This document shows positions 22,527-33,547 of a stretch of DNA of 39,609 nucleotides, piece by piece (within the stretch, counting starts at the first letter, position 1; the number at the start of each line of letters is the position of its first letter). Source of the stretch: Anaerolineae bacterium (lineage in GTDB: Bacteria; Chloroflexota; Anaerolineae; Epilineales; Epilineaceae); the NCBI GenBank assembly GCA_029262755.1, contig JAJCYU010000120.1:1-39609 (forward strand), read 5' to 3'. The position numbers were made by a program, and so were the translations under genes. The notes beneath the pieces are model-generated. The model was given only the letters and a program-made list of their open reading frames with translations. It did not search any database and was not told the origin of the DNA.

Positions 22527-23408
22527 ATGCCCGAGCTCCCCGAGATCGAAGCCTACCGCGCTGCCCTGCGAGCACGCGTCGAAGGCGAGGTCATCGAACG
22601 CGTGCGCAATCGGTCCGTCTCGTTGCTCAAGACGTGGGATCCGCCGCTGGAGGCCGCGCACGGCCGGCGCGTGCTCGACGTGCGGCGATTGGGGAAGCGT
22701 ATCGTGCTGGGGCTGGAGGACGAACTCTTCCTGGTCGTGCACTTGATGGTCGCCGGGCGGCTAGCATGGCTCGCTCCGGGGGCGGCGATCCCCAAGAAGT
22801 ACGGGCAGGCGGCCTTCGACTTTTCAGGCGGGACGCTGCTGCTGACCGAGGCGGGGACGAAGCGCAGGGCGTCGCTGCACGTGGTTCGCGGCGAGGACGG
22901 GCTGGCGGCGCTGGATCCGGGCGGGGTCGAGATCGCGGACGTATCGGCGCCGGACTTCGCGCTGCGCCTGCGCGCAGCACGGCACACCCTCAAGCGTGCG
23001 TTGAGCGACGCGCGCATCCTGAGCGGCATCGGCGGCGCCTTCGCCGACGAGATCCTGCACCGTGCGCGCCTGTCGCCGATGCAGCTGACGACGAACCTCA
23101 GCGACGAGGAGATGGCACGACTGTGGTCGGCGGCGCGTGCGACCATGGCGGAGTGGGAGGCACTACGCGTGGCGGAGACCGGCGACGGCTTCCCGACAAA
23201 GGTGACGGCCTTCCATCCGAGGATGGCCGTCCACGGCAAGTACGGCGAGCCGTGTCCGGTGTGCGGTGCGCCCGTTCAGCGCATCGTCTACGCCAGTCGC
23301 GAGACGAACTACTGCCCCGGCTGCCAGACGGACGGGCGGATCCTCAGGGACCGAGCGCTCAGCCGGCTGCTGCGCGAGACGTTTCCGAAGCACTTGGATG
23401 AGCTGTAG
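22527..23408 (+). CDS. Formamidopyrimidine-DNA glycosylase family (Fpg/MutM or Nei-like)
   Basis: The protein has 293 residues. The N terminus MPELPEIEAY supplies the catalytic Pro2 and Glu3, and K57 (LGKRIVLGL) is in place. The C-terminal zinc finger is complete, with C243, C246, C263 and C266 in CPVCG...YCPGCQ, and includes R258. The family removes oxidised bases such as 8-oxoguanine and cuts the strand. Two departures are seen. The helix-two-turn-helix Asn of the usual G-[IL]-G-N motif is Gly (GIGGAFADEIL, G170), and the protein runs 27 residues past the last zinc Cys. It resembles the longer Fpg subgroup, so activity on 8-oxoguanine is likely but not certain. It is probably expressed alone or with the downstream YrdB gene. 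Confidence 0.9.
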   Translation: MPELPEIEAYRAALRARVEGEVIERVRNRSVSLLKTWDPPLEAAHGRRVLDVRRLGKRIVLGLEDELFLVVHLMVAGRLAWLAPGAAIPKKYGQAAFDFSGGTLLLTEAGTKRRASLHVVRGEDGLAALDPGGVEIADVSAPDFALRLRAARHTLKRALSDARILSGIGGAFADEILHRARLSPMQLTTNLSDEEMARLWSAARATMAEWEALRVAETGDGFPTKVTAFHPRMAVHGKYGEPCPVCGAPVQRIVYASRETNYCPGCQTDGRILRDRALSRLLRETFPKHLDEL

Positions 23409-28472: not shown

Positions 28473-30803
28473 ATGCGTCGCTACTCGATTCCCACCGTCC
28501 TGCTGCTATTCGGCGCGACGGCCGTGTTCGCCATTGCGCCGGCTTCCGTCGAGCAATCGGTCGCCGCTGCGCCGGTGGATTCGGTGCCGGCCGGCGTCGC
28601 TCCCATCGCCGCGGCGCCCGACGGCCTGCTTCAAGATCCACCGGCCGACGAAGAGCCGGAGCTCTACGACGACCAGGTCGTCCACGACGTGCACTTCACG
28701 TTCGAGTCGAGCGATTGGCAATCCCAGCTGCACTGTCCGGCGCGCGGAGGACCCGGGGGGCCAGGCGGACCGGCTCGCCCAACGCCGGAGCCGCCGACCG
28801 ACCTGCCGGCGCGGTTGGAGATCGACGGGCACGTCATTGAGCGGGTGGGCGTTCGTTGTAAGGGCAACTCTTCGACGGGGATCAACGGCCCCAAGAAGCC
28901 GCTCAACCTCACGATCGACTCGTTCGACGATGGGCAGGATCTGTGGGGCTTCGACGTGATCAACTTCAACAACAACTACAACGACCCATCCCAGATGCGC
29001 GAGGCGATCATCCTGTCCATGTTGGGCACGTACATGCCCGTGCCACGCCATTCGTGGGCGCAGGTGCACGTCAACGGCCAGGTTGTGGGGCTGTACCTGC
29101 TCGTCGAGCAACTCGATCGGACGTACTCGGAGGACACCTTCGGTGATGCGGGGATCATGATTCGCGGCGACTCGCCCGACATCATTGCGTTCGAGTCCTC
29201 GACGCTCAATTGGCTGGGCGAGGACGTCGACGCGTACCGTGCCGGGTACGAGGTGAAGGGGCGCAACGCCGACTCGGACGAGGGCTACGAGCTGGTGCGC
29301 GAGCTGACCCGGGCGCTCGATGCACCCGAGAGCGCGGGCGGGCTCGCGGAGGAAGACCTCAACGAGGGGCTGTGGGAGATCCTCGATGTGGATAGCGCGC
29401 TTTGGTACATCGCTGGACATAACATCACGGCCGATTACGACAGCTACTTCGTGGGCAAGAACTTCTTCCTGCACTACGGAGAGCGCGATCCACGCCACCA
29501 CATGATCAGCTGGGATATGGGTCTGGGCTTTGGGCTGTTCCCCTTTATCGTTCCCGGCGGAGGTTTCGGTCCCGGCGGCCCCGGCGGACCGGGAGGGGGC
29601 ACGCCCGTCGAGCGCGTGGATCCCTTTGCGCAGGCGGAGTCCATGCAGCGGCCGCTGATCCGTCGGCTGCTGAGCGTACCGGAGTTCCGCGCCGACTACG
29701 TGGCCCACTACCGCGAGCTGCGCGCGAGCCTGTTCACTCAGGAATGGGTCGGCGCGTTGGGCGCGCGCTACCAAGAGCTCACCCGCGCGGCCGTGACGGC
29801 CGAGGAGACCGCGAACGGCTCGATCGCCGGCGCGTTCACCCTCGCGCAATGGGAGCAAAACCTCAACGAGCCGGTGGAGATCGCCGGCCGACGCGGCTCG
29901 ACAACGGTGCCTGGAATCGTGTCGCTCGTGCGCGAGCGTGGCGCGTTTCTCGACGGGCTGGCGGTCCTGCAGCCGCCGGACATCGACTTGGCGGAGCACG
30001 CGGTCGTGCCCGAGGCGCCGACCTCACGCGACGCGGTGACGTTGGTCGCGCGCTTCGACGGCGGCGACGCGGTAACGTCGGCGCAGCTGCGCTATCGGGT
30101 GCGGGGCGGCGTCGAGCAGCGCGTGCCGATGACGCGCGACGAGGACGGCTCGTGGACCGCGGTCGTGCCCGCGCAGGCGACGGGTCGGACGGTGACCTAC
30201 GCGTTCCGAGCCGAGATCGAGGATGGCCGCGTGACGTTCTTCCCGGCCGCCAACTGGACGCAACCCTTCGCGTACGAGATTGCCGGCGTCACGCTACCGC
30301 GCGAGGAGACGGGGGCGCTCGTCATCAACGAGCTGCTTGCGGACAACGAGGCCGGGCTGCTCGACGAGGCGGATGAAGCGGAAGACTGGCTCGAGTTGTA
30401 CAACCGCGGCGATGAGCCGATCGACCTGGCCGGCCACTTCATTTCCGACGACGCGGAGGATCCGTGGTCGTATGGACTACCGGCTATGAGCCTGTTGCCG
30501 GGCGAGCACCTACTGATCTGGTGCGACGGAGATCTGGATCAGGGACCGCTGCACACCCCGTTTCGCTTGAGTCGCGGTGGGGAGAGCGTGGTGTTGGCCA
30601 CCGCGGACGCCATCGTGGATCAGGTGGACTTCGGTGAGCAGGTTGCGGACGTTAGTTTTGGGCGTGTCACCGATGGCGCCGACACCTGGGACCAATGCGC
30701 CACGCCCTCGCCGGGGGCGGCCAATGCGTGCACGGGCTATGAAGCGCCGCCCGAGCCGCCGGCGACCTGGAGCCTGTACTTACCCCGAGTTCTGGACGAA
30801 TAA
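28473..30803 (+). CDS. Secreted CotH kinase-like protein with C-terminal lamin-tail domain
   Basis: The protein has 776 residues. A signal peptide (1-25) precedes a CotH domain (about 68-440). It shows VRCKGNSS, a KKPLNLTID segment, YLLVEQLDRTY and the metal-site Asp D348 in SWDMGLGFG. CotH proteins have an atypical protein-kinase fold, and the spore-coat CotH phosphorylates coat proteins. A beta domain (about 500-605), a lamin-tail domain (about 614-755) and the tail LYLPRVLDE follow. Two Gly/Pro insertions (RGGPGGPGGP at 91-100 and GGGFGPGGPGGPGGG at 362-376) interrupt the CotH domain. The ATG at 28473 has TAGGAG about seven bases upstream. The LTD is clearly paralogous to the partial gene at 3-593. 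No sporulation genes are nearby, so a surface-protein role is likelier than spore coat. Confidence 0.85.
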   Translation: MRRYSIPTVLLLFGATAVFAIAPASVEQSVAAAPVDSVPAGVAPIAAAPDGLLQDPPADEEPELYDDQVVHDVHFTFESSDWQSQLHCPARGGPGGPGGPARPTPEPPTDLPARLEIDGHVIERVGVRCKGNSSTGINGPKKPLNLTIDSFDDGQDLWGFDVINFNNNYNDPSQMREAIILSMLGTYMPVPRHSWAQVHVNGQVVGLYLLVEQLDRTYSEDTFGDAGIMIRGDSPDIIAFESSTLNWLGEDVDAYRAGYEVKGRNADSDEGYELVRELTRALDAPESAGGLAEEDLNEGLWEILDVDSALWYIAGHNITADYDSYFVGKNFFLHYGERDPRHHMISWDMGLGFGLFPFIVPGGGFGPGGPGGPGGGTPVERVDPFAQAESMQRPLIRRLLSVPEFRADYVAHYRELRASLFTQEWVGALGARYQELTRAAVTAEETANGSIAGAFTLAQWEQNLNEPVEIAGRRGSTTVPGIVSLVRERGAFLDGLAVLQPPDIDLAEHAVVPEAPTSRDAVTLVARFDGGDAVTSAQLRYRVRGGVEQRVPMTRDEDGSWTAVVPAQATGRTVTYAFRAEIEDGRVTFFPAANWTQPFAYEIAGVTLPREETGALVINELLADNEAGLLDEADEAEDWLELYNRGDEPIDLAGHFISDDAEDPWSYGLPAMSLLPGEHLLIWCDGDLDQGPLHTPFRLSRGGESVVLATADAIVDQVDFGEQVADVSFGRVTDGADTWDQCATPSPGAANACTGYEAPPEPPATWSLYLPRVLDE

Positions 30804-30820
30804 GTCGGTTGCGTAGGAGG

Positions 30821-30853
30821 GCCGCGCCCGGCGATTCGTTCCTCCGGCGCGGC
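30821..30853 (+). terminator. GC-rich hairpin after the CotH gene
   Basis: GCCGCGCC (30821-30828) pairs with GGCGCGGC (30846-30853) across 17 bases, and an outer GGAGG/CCTCC pairing is an alternative fold. It begins 18 bp past the CotH stop. A T-rich tail is missing, so this is only a candidate. Confidence 0.45.
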
Positions 30854-31110
30854 GCTTGCTCTCGGTAGGTTGCGCGCATTGCCGGCGGCCGAATTTGGAG
30901 TGGTGGTCGATGATGACGAAGCACTCGGTGTATCGGCAGACCTCGACGTCCACAAACGGTTGTCACCATGGACGGATTTGCGGGCCGGCAGCCGAACGCG
31001 GTGCCGGCGAAACTCGGCATTCGTCCGCGGCGAGATCGTGGAGGAGACGTGCTCCTGCGCAAGCGACCTGGAGAATGCATGACGCGACCGTCCTCTGTCA
31101 TGAAATTAAC
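30854..31110. other. Intergenic region, no supported gene
   Basis: About 250 bp lie between the CotH hairpin and the cold-shock promoter. Short frames exist on both strands but lack ribosome binding sites and have arginine-rich, shadow-like composition. I see nothing further to annotate. Confidence 0.4.
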
Positions 31111-31138
31111 TTGTGTTGGGACGTTTTCCGGGTATACT
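31111..31138 (+). promoter_or_regulatory. Candidate promoter of the cold-shock gene
   Basis: A -35 TTGTGT (31111-31116), a 16-base spacer and a -10 TATACT (31133-31138) lie about 200 bases before the cold-shock ATG. The surrounding DNA is locally AT-rich. Transcription would start near 31145 and give a long leader. Confidence 0.6.
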
Positions 31139-31144
31139 GCCACC

Positions 31145-31346
31145 GGTATCGCGTCCTAACGGGCGCGTCGAGCAGCCAGAGAACACGCAGCGGGGGTCCT
31201 GGGTTGCACTACCGGGAGCCCCCTTTTTGCATGGGCTCGTAGGCAAATCGAAACCAGGGAGGGCGACTTGCGCTCTCCCAATGTAGAAGGCGACTCGCGT
31301 CTTCTCAGTATCGTGCACGTGCACGCAACACAGGAGTGGCAACACC
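31145..31346 (+). promoter_or_regulatory. Structured 5' leader of the cold-shock gene
   Basis: The leader of about 200 nt contains, in order, a terminator-like hairpin, two similar adjacent hairpins and a palindrome, then AGGAG about ten bases before the ATG. Hairpin A is GGGAGGGCG-loop ACTTG-CGCTCTCCC (31257-31279). Hairpin B is GAAGGCG-loop ACTCG-CGTCTTC (31286-31304). The 12-base palindrome GTGCACGTGCAC is at 31313-31324. Long structured leaders control csp mRNA in other bacteria; temperature control here is inference. Confidence 0.6.
31192..31228 (+). terminator. Intrinsic-terminator-like hairpin inside the cold-shock leader
   Basis: GGGGGTCCTGG (31192-31202) pairs with CCGGGAGCCCCC (31212-31223) with one bulged base and a nine-base loop, and five T residues follow at once (31224-31228). 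It lies between the promoter and the gene. It could be an attenuator, or the end of a separate small RNA of about 85 nt. Confidence 0.65.
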
Positions 31347-31556
31347 ATGGCGACCGGTATTGTGAAGTGGTTCAACGACACCAAGGGCTTCGGCTTTATT
31401 ACGCCCGACGGCGGCGGAGAAGACTGCTTCGTCCACCATACCGCCATCCAGGGCACCGGCTTCAAGACGTTGGCCGAGGGTGAGAAGGTTGAGTTTGAGA
31501 TCACGCAGGGCAAGAAGGGCCCCGCGGCCGAGAACGTCGTTCGGATGGGCATGTAA
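31347..31556 (+). CDS. csp: Cold-shock protein (CspA family)
   Basis: This 69-residue single cold-shock domain starts [20 protein letters not shown]. It contains both RNA-binding motifs, RNP1 (KGFGFI) and RNP2 (CFVHHTAI), and ends with the usual [17 protein letters not shown] strand. Such proteins bind single-stranded RNA and DNA and melt secondary structure; many are induced by cold. The length and pattern are fully typical. AGGAG lies about ten bases before the ATG, which itself sits in a long structured leader. A very stable hairpin ends the transcript, so the gene is probably monocistronic. Confidence 0.95.
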
Positions 31557-31620
31557 TTGCTCGTTCGGCACGTGCGGGAAGCGCCTTGCGCGCCGGCTGA
31601 CACGTCGCTAACGACTTAAC

Positions 31621-31654
31621 ATCGGGGGCCGCGCCGCAAGGCGCGGCCCCCGAT
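31621..31654 (+). terminator. Strong terminator hairpin of the cold-shock gene
   Basis: A perfect 15-bp stem (31621-31635 with 31640-31654, left arm ATCGGGGGCCGCGCC) is closed by a GCAA tetraloop of the stable GNRA class. It lies 65 bp past the csp stop. The 3' side reads TCGTTAAG, so the U tract is weak. Confidence 0.8.
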
Positions 31655-31788
31655 TCGTTAAGGGCTCCATGACGACCGGTGTCGTGAGCGAATTCAAGAT
31701 TGGGTGCAATCAATTCGTGCCAGGATGCGTGTACAGGGATGGCGGCCTCGAAGCCGCGACCACGTCCAAGCTCCCCAGGAGAACACCC

Positions 31789-32208
31789 ATGACCGCGATC
31801 ACGCGCCAACTCGATGAACGACTGACAAGCATCGCCGCCCTACCAGGGATCGGGCTATTCGTAACCCGTGTTGCTACGGCGTTGATCTTCCTCTATCACG
31901 GATGGCCGAAGGCCACGGATTGGGCGATGGCCACAGACAAATTTATCGGCTTCGGTTTGCCCGGCTTTCTCGGCCCACTCGTGGGCATCCTCGAGGTCGT
32001 GTTTGGGTTGACCTTGCTCGTCGGCTTCATGACCCGCGTCAGCAGCATCGTGCTTGGCGTCATCATCATCGTGGCGCTTCTGGCGGTGCAGCTTCCCGGT
32101 GGTTCGGTCAGCGCGGGCCTTGAACGCGACGCCATGATTCTGGCCGCCACAATCGTATTGGCCGCCTACGGTCCGGGACGCTGGGCCGCAGACCGAACAG
32201 AAGGCTGA
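31789..32208 (+). CDS. DoxX family membrane protein
   Basis: This 139-residue protein has four predicted helices. The DoxX signature is seen in RVATALIFLYHGWPKATDW, then GFLGPLVGILEVVFGLTLLV. DoxX-like proteins occur with redox and thiosulfate-oxidation functions and in oxidative-stress membrane complexes, but many have no assigned role. The ATG at 31789 has CCAGGAGAA upstream; the longer frame from 31669 is rejected. It ends five bases before the ECF sigma gene, suggesting one operon with the sigma/anti-sigma pair and possibly control by that sigma factor. Confidence 0.85.
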   Translation: MTAITRQLDERLTSIAALPGIGLFVTRVATALIFLYHGWPKATDWAMATDKFIGFGLPGFLGPLVGILEVVFGLTLLVGFMTRVSSIVLGVIIIVALLAVQLPGGSVSAGLERDAMILAATIVLAAYGPGRWAADRTEG

Positions 32209-32213
32209 GCAAC

Positions 32214-32795
32214 GTGTCTTCCTCCGCGACGCGGCCCCTTCGATTTCCGGGGTCGCGTCGCGCTTCGGATTCGGGGGCGCAGCCTGGTCCGGATTCGCGA
32301 GCGGAGCTCGACCAAATCGAGGAGCTGCTGCAGCGAGGCTATCGTTATGCGATGGCGTTGACGCACGATGCTGATCGCGCCGCGGATCTGGTGCAGGACG
32401 CGGCCGAAGGGGTGAGCCGACGCGGCGGGCCCTGGTCGCTGCCCTATGTGTTGCGAGCCATTCGCAATCGGCACATCGACCTTCATCGGCGTAAGGGGCT
32501 GTCGCTTGTCGCCCTTGACGTCCGTCATCCTCAGCCGTCGCAGGAACCCGATCTGCCGACCGGCGCCGCCGACCCGCGATTGGAACGCGCATTGGCCGCG
32601 TTGGATACGGACGATCGGGAGCTGCTGTACCTTTCGGCGGTCGAGGGCTGGACCGCGGCCGAGATTGCGGATCTAACCCGTCGCCCTCGCGGCACCGTGT
32701 TGAGCCGCATGGCGCGAGCGAAGGCGCGTATGCGGGCGTCCCTGGAGAAGGAAGGGCAGCCGAACGGTCGGTCGGCGAAGGAGGAAGGCACGTGA
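32214..32795 (+). CDS. ECF-type RNA polymerase sigma factor
   Basis: The protein has 193 residues. Region 2 (about 40-95) contains GYRYAMALTHDADRAADLVQ and then YVLRAIRNRHIDLHRRKGL. Region 4 (about 127-180) contains RELLYLSAVEGWTAAEIADL, then RRPRGTVLSRMARAKARM, which is the DNA-reading helix-turn-helix. Regions 1 and 3 are absent, as in ECF sigmas. The start is GTG. Its stop overlaps the start of the next gene by four bases (GTGA). ECF sigmas are held inactive by a membrane anti-sigma encoded beside them, as here. The target promoters cannot be predicted. Confidence 0.9.
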   Translation: MSSSATRPLRFPGSRRASDSGAQPGPDSRAELDQIEELLQRGYRYAMALTHDADRAADLVQDAAEGVSRRGGPWSLPYVLRAIRNRHIDLHRRKGLSLVALDVRHPQPSQEPDLPTGAADPRLERALAALDTDDRELLYLSAVEGWTAAEIADLTRRPRGTVLSRMARAKARMRASLEKEGQPNGRSAKEEGT

Positions 32796-33547
32796 GCGAC
32801 GACCAAGCGCGAAACGATCCGCTCGAGCGGATGCGAGCGCATTATGCGACCCAGCGGATGTCGCCGGACCGACTTGCGGCGATCGTGAAGGGGATCGAAC
32901 GTCAGCGTGTCTTGCCGGAGGATGCCGAGCGCAAATGGCAGGACGGCGCACGAACCGACCAAGATGCCGCGCGCAGGACTCCGGGTGTGCATGGCACTTG
33001 GGAGTACAGTGCTGGACGGTTCGCGCCCTCGGAGCGCCCAGGCCATGCGGCGACGGCCCGGCGCGCGATCCGGGCGCTGCGGCCCTACACCAGCCTCGCC
33101 GCGGCCCTCGTGCTGGCGGTCGCCTTGGGGACGTTCGCGCGGCGCCAACAGCTGCGGGCCGCTCAGATCACCGGGGTAGCGAGTGAGATCGCGCTGAACC
33201 ACCACAAGGCGCTTGAGTTGGACGTTGAGGTGGATGGCTTTGAGGAACTCGCCGGCGCGATGCCGCTGCTCGATTTCTCGCCGATGGCGCCCGGTGCGAT
33301 CGCGACGGAGGGCTATCGACTGCTCGGTGCACGGTATTGCTCAATCGGAGGATCGATCGCGGCGCAGATTCGGCTCGTGGATTCCGGCGGTGTGCGCGCG
33401 ACGCTGTACGAGCTGCGCGAATCGGGCCATGCCGGGTTGGTCGACCACGCGGACACGGAAGTGGACGGGCTGCGGGTCCGGCTCTGGCGGGAGGGTGGCC
33501 TTCTCATGGGCCTCGCTCGGCCGATCGGCGACGTCGCGACACCGTGA
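32792..33547 (+). CDS. Membrane anti-sigma factor (putative)
   Basis: The protein has 251 residues. A cytoplasmic N-terminal part (1-98) is followed by one membrane helix (about 99-116, SLAAALVLAVALGTFA) and an extracytoplasmic domain (about 120-251) with GYRLLGARYCSIGGSIAAQI and LYELRESG. That outer domain is typical of anti-sigma factors encoded after ECF sigmas. The cytoplasmic part has no HxxxCxxC zinc motif, so it is not a ZAS-type member. The GTG start overlaps the sigma stop, with GGAGG upstream. It should hold the sigma factor at the membrane until a signal is received. The function follows mainly from its place and topology. Confidence 0.75.
   Translation: MSDDQARNDPLERMRAHYATQRMSPDRLAAIVKGIERQRVLPEDAERKWQDGARTDQDAARRTPGVHGTWEYSAGRFAPSERPGHAATARRAIRALRPYTSLAAALVLAVALGTFARRQQLRAAQITGVASEIALNHHKALELDVEVDGFEELAGAMPLLDFSPMAPGAIATEGYRLLGARYCSIGGSIAAQIRLVDSGGVRATLYELRESGHAGLVDHADTEVDGLRVRLWREGGLLMGLARPIGDVATP

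Follow-up and report, generated by a model that had tools for sequence, protein, structure and literature searches.

The cold-shock gene csp of an Anaerolineae bacterium (Chloroflexota) is probably transcribed alone behind a 5' leader of about 200 nt, in which a predicted early intrinsic terminator would have its read-through set externally. The gene lies in the 39,609-nucleotide stretch of DNA analysed here, called the window, to which all positions refer. As judged by comparison of sequences, attenuation is the best-supported reading of this leader, because an early intrinsic terminator recurs in the csp leaders of Gemmatimonadota and of the window's own class. In the window the intrinsic terminator is placed, as a predicted structure, between the promoter and csp. 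The gene (31347-31556; on the forward strand, as are the leader features and the hairpin after the gene) encodes a 69-residue cold-shock-domain protein (Pfam CSD, 104 bits, E = 3.8e-30), and a 15-bp hairpin detected 3' of it by the hairpin scan (31621-31654) is the probable end of the single-gene transcript.

The leader region spans 31111-31346. Its promoter-like sequence (31111-31138), read by eye, consists of a -35 element TTGTGT (31111-31116), a spacer of 16 and a -10 element TATACT (31133-31138), and transcription is expected to start near 31145. An earlier note on this DNA had called the promoter good. This is true of the -10 element but overstated for the whole, because the best -35 matches only 3 of the 6 consensus positions and a consensus promoter scan of 30800-31800 returned nothing. 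The minimum-energy fold begins with the hairpin CGCGTCC-TAAC-GGGCGCG (31150-31167). It is followed by the P1/P2 element (31173-31250), delineated by the fold and by the covariance models R1 and R2 described below, in which an interrupted outer stem encloses the terminator hairpin; in the unconstrained fold of the leader, the arms of the outer stem are GCCAGAG... and ...CUCGUAGGC. The T5-tailed hairpin reported in the earlier note is present at 31192-31228, as seen in the sequence, the fold and the hairpin scans. This hairpin, P2, has a stem of 11 bp with one bulge (31192-31202 with 31212-31223), a U5 tail (31224-31228) and a folding energy of -21.4 kcal/mol, and its U-run lies at -123 relative to csp. 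P2 was missed by a strict terminator scan because its stem is bulged. In the nascent RNA ending at 31228, the predicted pair probabilities of the terminator are about 0.67-0.94.

Two adjacent hairpins with a common GGCG-loop-CG closing are folded downstream, hairpin A (31257-31279, 9 bp, loop ACUUG) and hairpin B (8 bp, loop ACUCG), the limits of the latter being corrected to 31285-31305. The palindrome CGTGCACGTGCACG, previously given as 12 bp, is perfect over 14 nt (31312-31325) and forms a 5-bp hairpin with the loop ACGU. Standing just 5' of the Shine-Dalgarno sequence AGGAG (31332-31336, 10 nt 5' of the ATG), it could be a DNA-binding site or a small hairpin. The whole leader folds with -103.2 kcal/mol compared to -80.6 ± 4.6 for shuffled sequences (z = -4.9; none of 200 shuffles was equally stable), and the segment 31250-31330, comprising hairpins A and B and the palindrome, reaches z = -4.1 on its own. 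The adjacency of the two hairpins is by itself near chance: pairs of hairpins of at least 8 bp within 12 nt occur at 2 places on the forward strand of the window, the leader being one, and 0-3 times in each shuffled window, about one per window. This count leaves out the shared GGCG-ACUYG-CG core and the position ahead of csp, which are what is notable about hairpins A and B. The hairpin core GGCGACTYGCGYC was considered as a genomic repeat and rejected: its 5 other exact matches in the genome do not fold into hairpin pairs.

We compared csp leaders by counting terminator-like hairpins, defined as hairpins with a U-rich tail located at -200 to -30 from csp. The collection of 103 Gemmatimonadota-type leaders includes the window, one Eisenbacteria leader, one from a 'Deltaproteobacteria' MAG and a few others. 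Such a hairpin is present in 68 of them, compared to 5-15 in shuffles, and in 12 of 469 stretches of flanking DNA. The U-run of the window leader is located at the same place as the terminators of related leaders, within the range of about -50 to -170 that marks the Gemmatimonadota element. Of 55 csp leaders from the class of the window itself, 33 carry a terminator-like hairpin (shuffles, 0-6). This recurrence supports the attenuation that the earlier note had proposed. The own-class leaders resemble the window in having this hairpin before csp but differ from it in sequence: their terminator is GCC-rich, and a GTAGG..GTAAG-like element, conserved for example in L007, L016, L020, L125, L132 and L142, follows the promoter. 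The apex of the terminator that follows holds a complement (CTTAC, CTTCG, CTTCA) of the GTAAG, or CGAAG/TGAAG, of this element; the two might form an antiterminator or a kissing pair. Complementarity of the terminator loop to upstream sequence was found in 14 of the 33 own-class leaders against 23% expected, which is suggestive only, and is at chance level in Gemmatimonadota.

Many Gemmatimonadota leaders contain a hairpin GGACCUGG...GGUCC followed by a U-run, enclosed in an outer stem formed by CCAGnGAC and GUUUCUGG. Model R1, derived from 21 leaders, was run on 90 loci and gave 40 matches that constitute alignment A2, from which model R2 was built. In A2, 14 of 18 pairs have changed on both sides, and 69 double-changed cells were counted against 32.4 ± 5.4 after shuffling, slid controls being all lower, in an alignment that was fitted to the structure, which favours this count. 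R2 was then applied to 149 genomes of the Gemmatimonadota class: among its best 30 loci, 26 were read directly and have csp or rpsU-csp downstream, and the remaining 4, near contig ends, adjoin known csp genes by their coordinates. None of the best 30 loci in 150 genomes of the window's own class precedes csp. The element is thus specific to csp where it is strong. The same element is found ahead of rpsU in rpsU-csp operons (L198, L208, L193, L212, L037, L179), in many cases with a broken U-tract.

When both strands of the window were searched, the csp leader (31173-31239) ranked first for R1 and for R2, with a full-length match. The match is weak (R1, 13.6 bits, E = 0.088; R2, 15.4 bits, E = 0.028, both for 39.6 kb), and the leader is absent from the genome-wide R2 search at E ≤ 0.01. 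Direct sequence similarity between the window leader and Gemmatimonadota leaders was also tried and did not rise above shuffles. Given its place before csp, the model match is suggestive; we regard the leader as alike in architecture to the Gemmatimonadota element and as a possible, not a certain, homologue of it. Both are positioned before csp and have a GCCAGAG motif, a CCUGG terminator hairpin with a U-run, enclosed by an outer stem, and two structured elements ahead of AGGAGU.

The two leaders differ between the terminator and the Shine-Dalgarno site. In Gemmatimonadota leaders (for example L195, L200, L207 and L163), an H-type pseudoknot GCCC-nn-CGYGR-GGGC-n5-YCRCG is located at -103 to -84. 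It is found in 47 of 102 leaders (shuffled mean 2.6, maximum 6; at most 8 at other positions) and covaries, several pair types being present at every pair. We found no H-type pseudoknot in the window; about half of the Gemmatimonadota leaders likewise lack it. A Shine-Dalgarno-proximal hairpin with a GUACGG/CCGGACUCC internal loop is present in 43 of 102 leaders. Its outer stem has 285 of 344 cells paired, shuffled partners giving 250 ± 5, in a register optimised for each leader, which favours pairing, and the ACUCC within the hairpin is the complement of the Shine-Dalgarno GGAGU. This hairpin is absent from the window, which has two ACUYG hairpins and the palindrome. Pairing of the ACUY loop with GAGU of the window's Shine-Dalgarno site amounts to 4 pairs only and is not claimed. 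Conservation of leader stems among orthologues, raised in the earlier note, is thus divided: the terminator recurs in related leaders, whereas the stems of hairpins A and B are not conserved there, the pseudoknot and a different hairpin being found instead. A wider interpretation can be offered tentatively. In at least two phyla, csp would be under a leader terminator antiterminated by its own product. The Gemmatimonadota version would constitute a new structured RNA class, made of the terminator in its outer stem, the compact H-type pseudoknot and the Shine-Dalgarno-proximal internal-loop hairpin, and the window would carry a diverged, horizontally moved copy in which two ACUYG hairpins have replaced the pseudoknot.

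Sequence identities make csp look foreign to its genome. Its closest relatives are from Gemmatimonadota (76-81% identity), the next best, in 199 genomes of its own class, reaching 69-72%. Among 400 genomes of its own phylum, only one other genome (G612) has an equally close csp, L300, whose leader is like the Gemmatimonadota type without the terminator, which hints at a similar transfer, or at contamination. An fpg/mutM-like gene (22527-23405) is 54-59% identical to most Gemmatimonadota tested and 29-38% to the own class. Since csp and fpg are both nearer to Gemmatimonadota than to the own class, either both were gained by lateral transfer or the contig was placed in the wrong bin. The window's CotH protein has a C-terminal YLP motif, a motif associated with Chloroflexota. 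Downstream of csp, a DoxX gene (31669-32208) adjoins a region (32214-33547) where an ECF-type sigma factor gene is directly followed by a gene of unknown function, possibly an anti-sigma factor.

How read-through might be controlled was considered from the RNA itself. A self-contained antiterminator in the window was rejected, as the best fold without the 5' arm of the terminator is 11.5 kcal/mol worse. External control of read-through is most likely because the RNA has no predicted competing antiterminator. Transcription would often end near 31228 and leave an RNA of about 84 nt. In a varying share of transcripts it would continue, the outer stem would fold around the terminator and downstream hairpins would form, and the cold-shock protein would be made. 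The level of read-through would depend on a protein that binds single-stranded RNA in trans, for which Csp itself is plausible, or alternatively on a changed behaviour of RNA polymerase in the cold. Csp is the natural candidate because CspA, CspC, CspE and CspD of E. coli reduce intrinsic termination (PMC9765468, PMC4347634); by this analogy, we infer that csp would here be under the control of its own product. The sequences show the structures, how stable they are and that such terminators recur before csp; termination, its regulation, the regulator and cold as the signal are likewise what we infer for the window leader. The U-tract of only 5, the bulged stem, the weak R2 match and the lack of significant sequence similarity to Gemmatimonadota leaders are points against this mechanism.

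Alternatively, the leader could act mainly after transcription, on translation or mRNA stability, with P1/P2 and the hairpins being protein-binding or RNase-resistant and the U-tract serving as a single-stranded Csp-binding site. P1 covaries although only RNA that has read through can form it; the pseudoknot and the Shine-Dalgarno-proximal hairpin are conserved in relatives; and in the cold, CspA of E. coli enhances translation of the mRNA that encodes it (PMC9947658). In several related leaders, moreover, the hairpin is preserved but the U-tract is broken (L193, L165, L188 and L208, mostly before rpsU-csp), so part of the family may use the element for something other than termination, after transcription. 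However, about two thirds of the leaders keep a terminator-grade hairpin and U-run at this position, and we regard this explanation of the window leader as unlikely.

The earlier note had also proposed a temperature-sensitive leader. An RNA thermometer like that of E. coli cspA would refold with temperature to open or close the Shine-Dalgarno site. The shared gene family, the long leader and the cold-shock context speak for it. In the energy model, however, the Shine-Dalgarno site becomes only a little more accessible on warming from 10 to 55 °C (unpaired probability 0.45 and 0.61, respectively) and the hairpins do not open; predicted pairing is thus nearly constant, and the proposal is not supported for this sequence. 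Nor did any family of Rfam 15 match the window leader at gathering or permissive thresholds. The cspA thermoregulator model RF01766 scored 36.8 bits, compared to a gathering cut-off of 78 bits, when the coding part was included and gave no match without it. On twenty related loci, Rfam likewise returned only cspA, where the coding part was included, and nothing in the short loci that contain little beyond the leader. The window leader resembles the E. coli cspA thermosensor leader (RF01766; Giuliodori 2010, as cited in PMC9947658 and PMC3738593) in being a long structured 5' leader of csp, but it has neither an RF01766 match nor a predicted temperature switch. A thermometer is thus very improbable here.

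Elsewhere among bacteria, attenuation can release products that work in trans, an example being cited in PMC3738593. In a further reading, the U5 hairpin closes a small RNA gene of its own, about 84 nt long and beginning near 31145, and csp has a second promoter downstream of it. The promoter-to-terminator distance fits, but we consider this reading the least probable of all: in relatives the hairpin goes together with csp or rpsU-csp, which suits a leader better than a free-standing RNA gene, and the scan of 30800-31800 found no second promoter-like site. The separate RNA of about 85 nt put forward in the earlier note and the attenuated leader product would be the same molecule, about 31145-31228.

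Under the attenuation reading, the window leader is a variation on csp leader attenuators. We found no description of such csp-leader terminators in these groups in the open-access literature, the part of the literature covered by our search, and cold shock goes unmentioned in a survey of bacterial attenuators (PMC2965389). Read-through raised by Csp proteins has been described for the metY-rpsO operon (CspA, CspC, CspE) and for SgrS, the tnaC leader and others (CspD) (PMC9765468, PMC4347634). The window leader is similar to these systems in having an intrinsic terminator hairpin with Csp as candidate antiterminator; it differs in that csp itself is the gene whose leader contains the predicted terminator. 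In the leaders tested, the conserved Gemmatimonadota pseudoknot leader had no Rfam match, and it offers a concrete target. What is known of how cold induces csp genes comes mostly from E. coli, with leader refolding and mRNA stability as the dominant means. We know of no intrinsic terminator that belongs to the E. coli cspA leader. A leader terminator before csp in two groups that are far apart points to attenuation of transcription as a further widespread means of control, and the direct feedback loop that this may entail is testable, since Csp proteins are known antiterminators.
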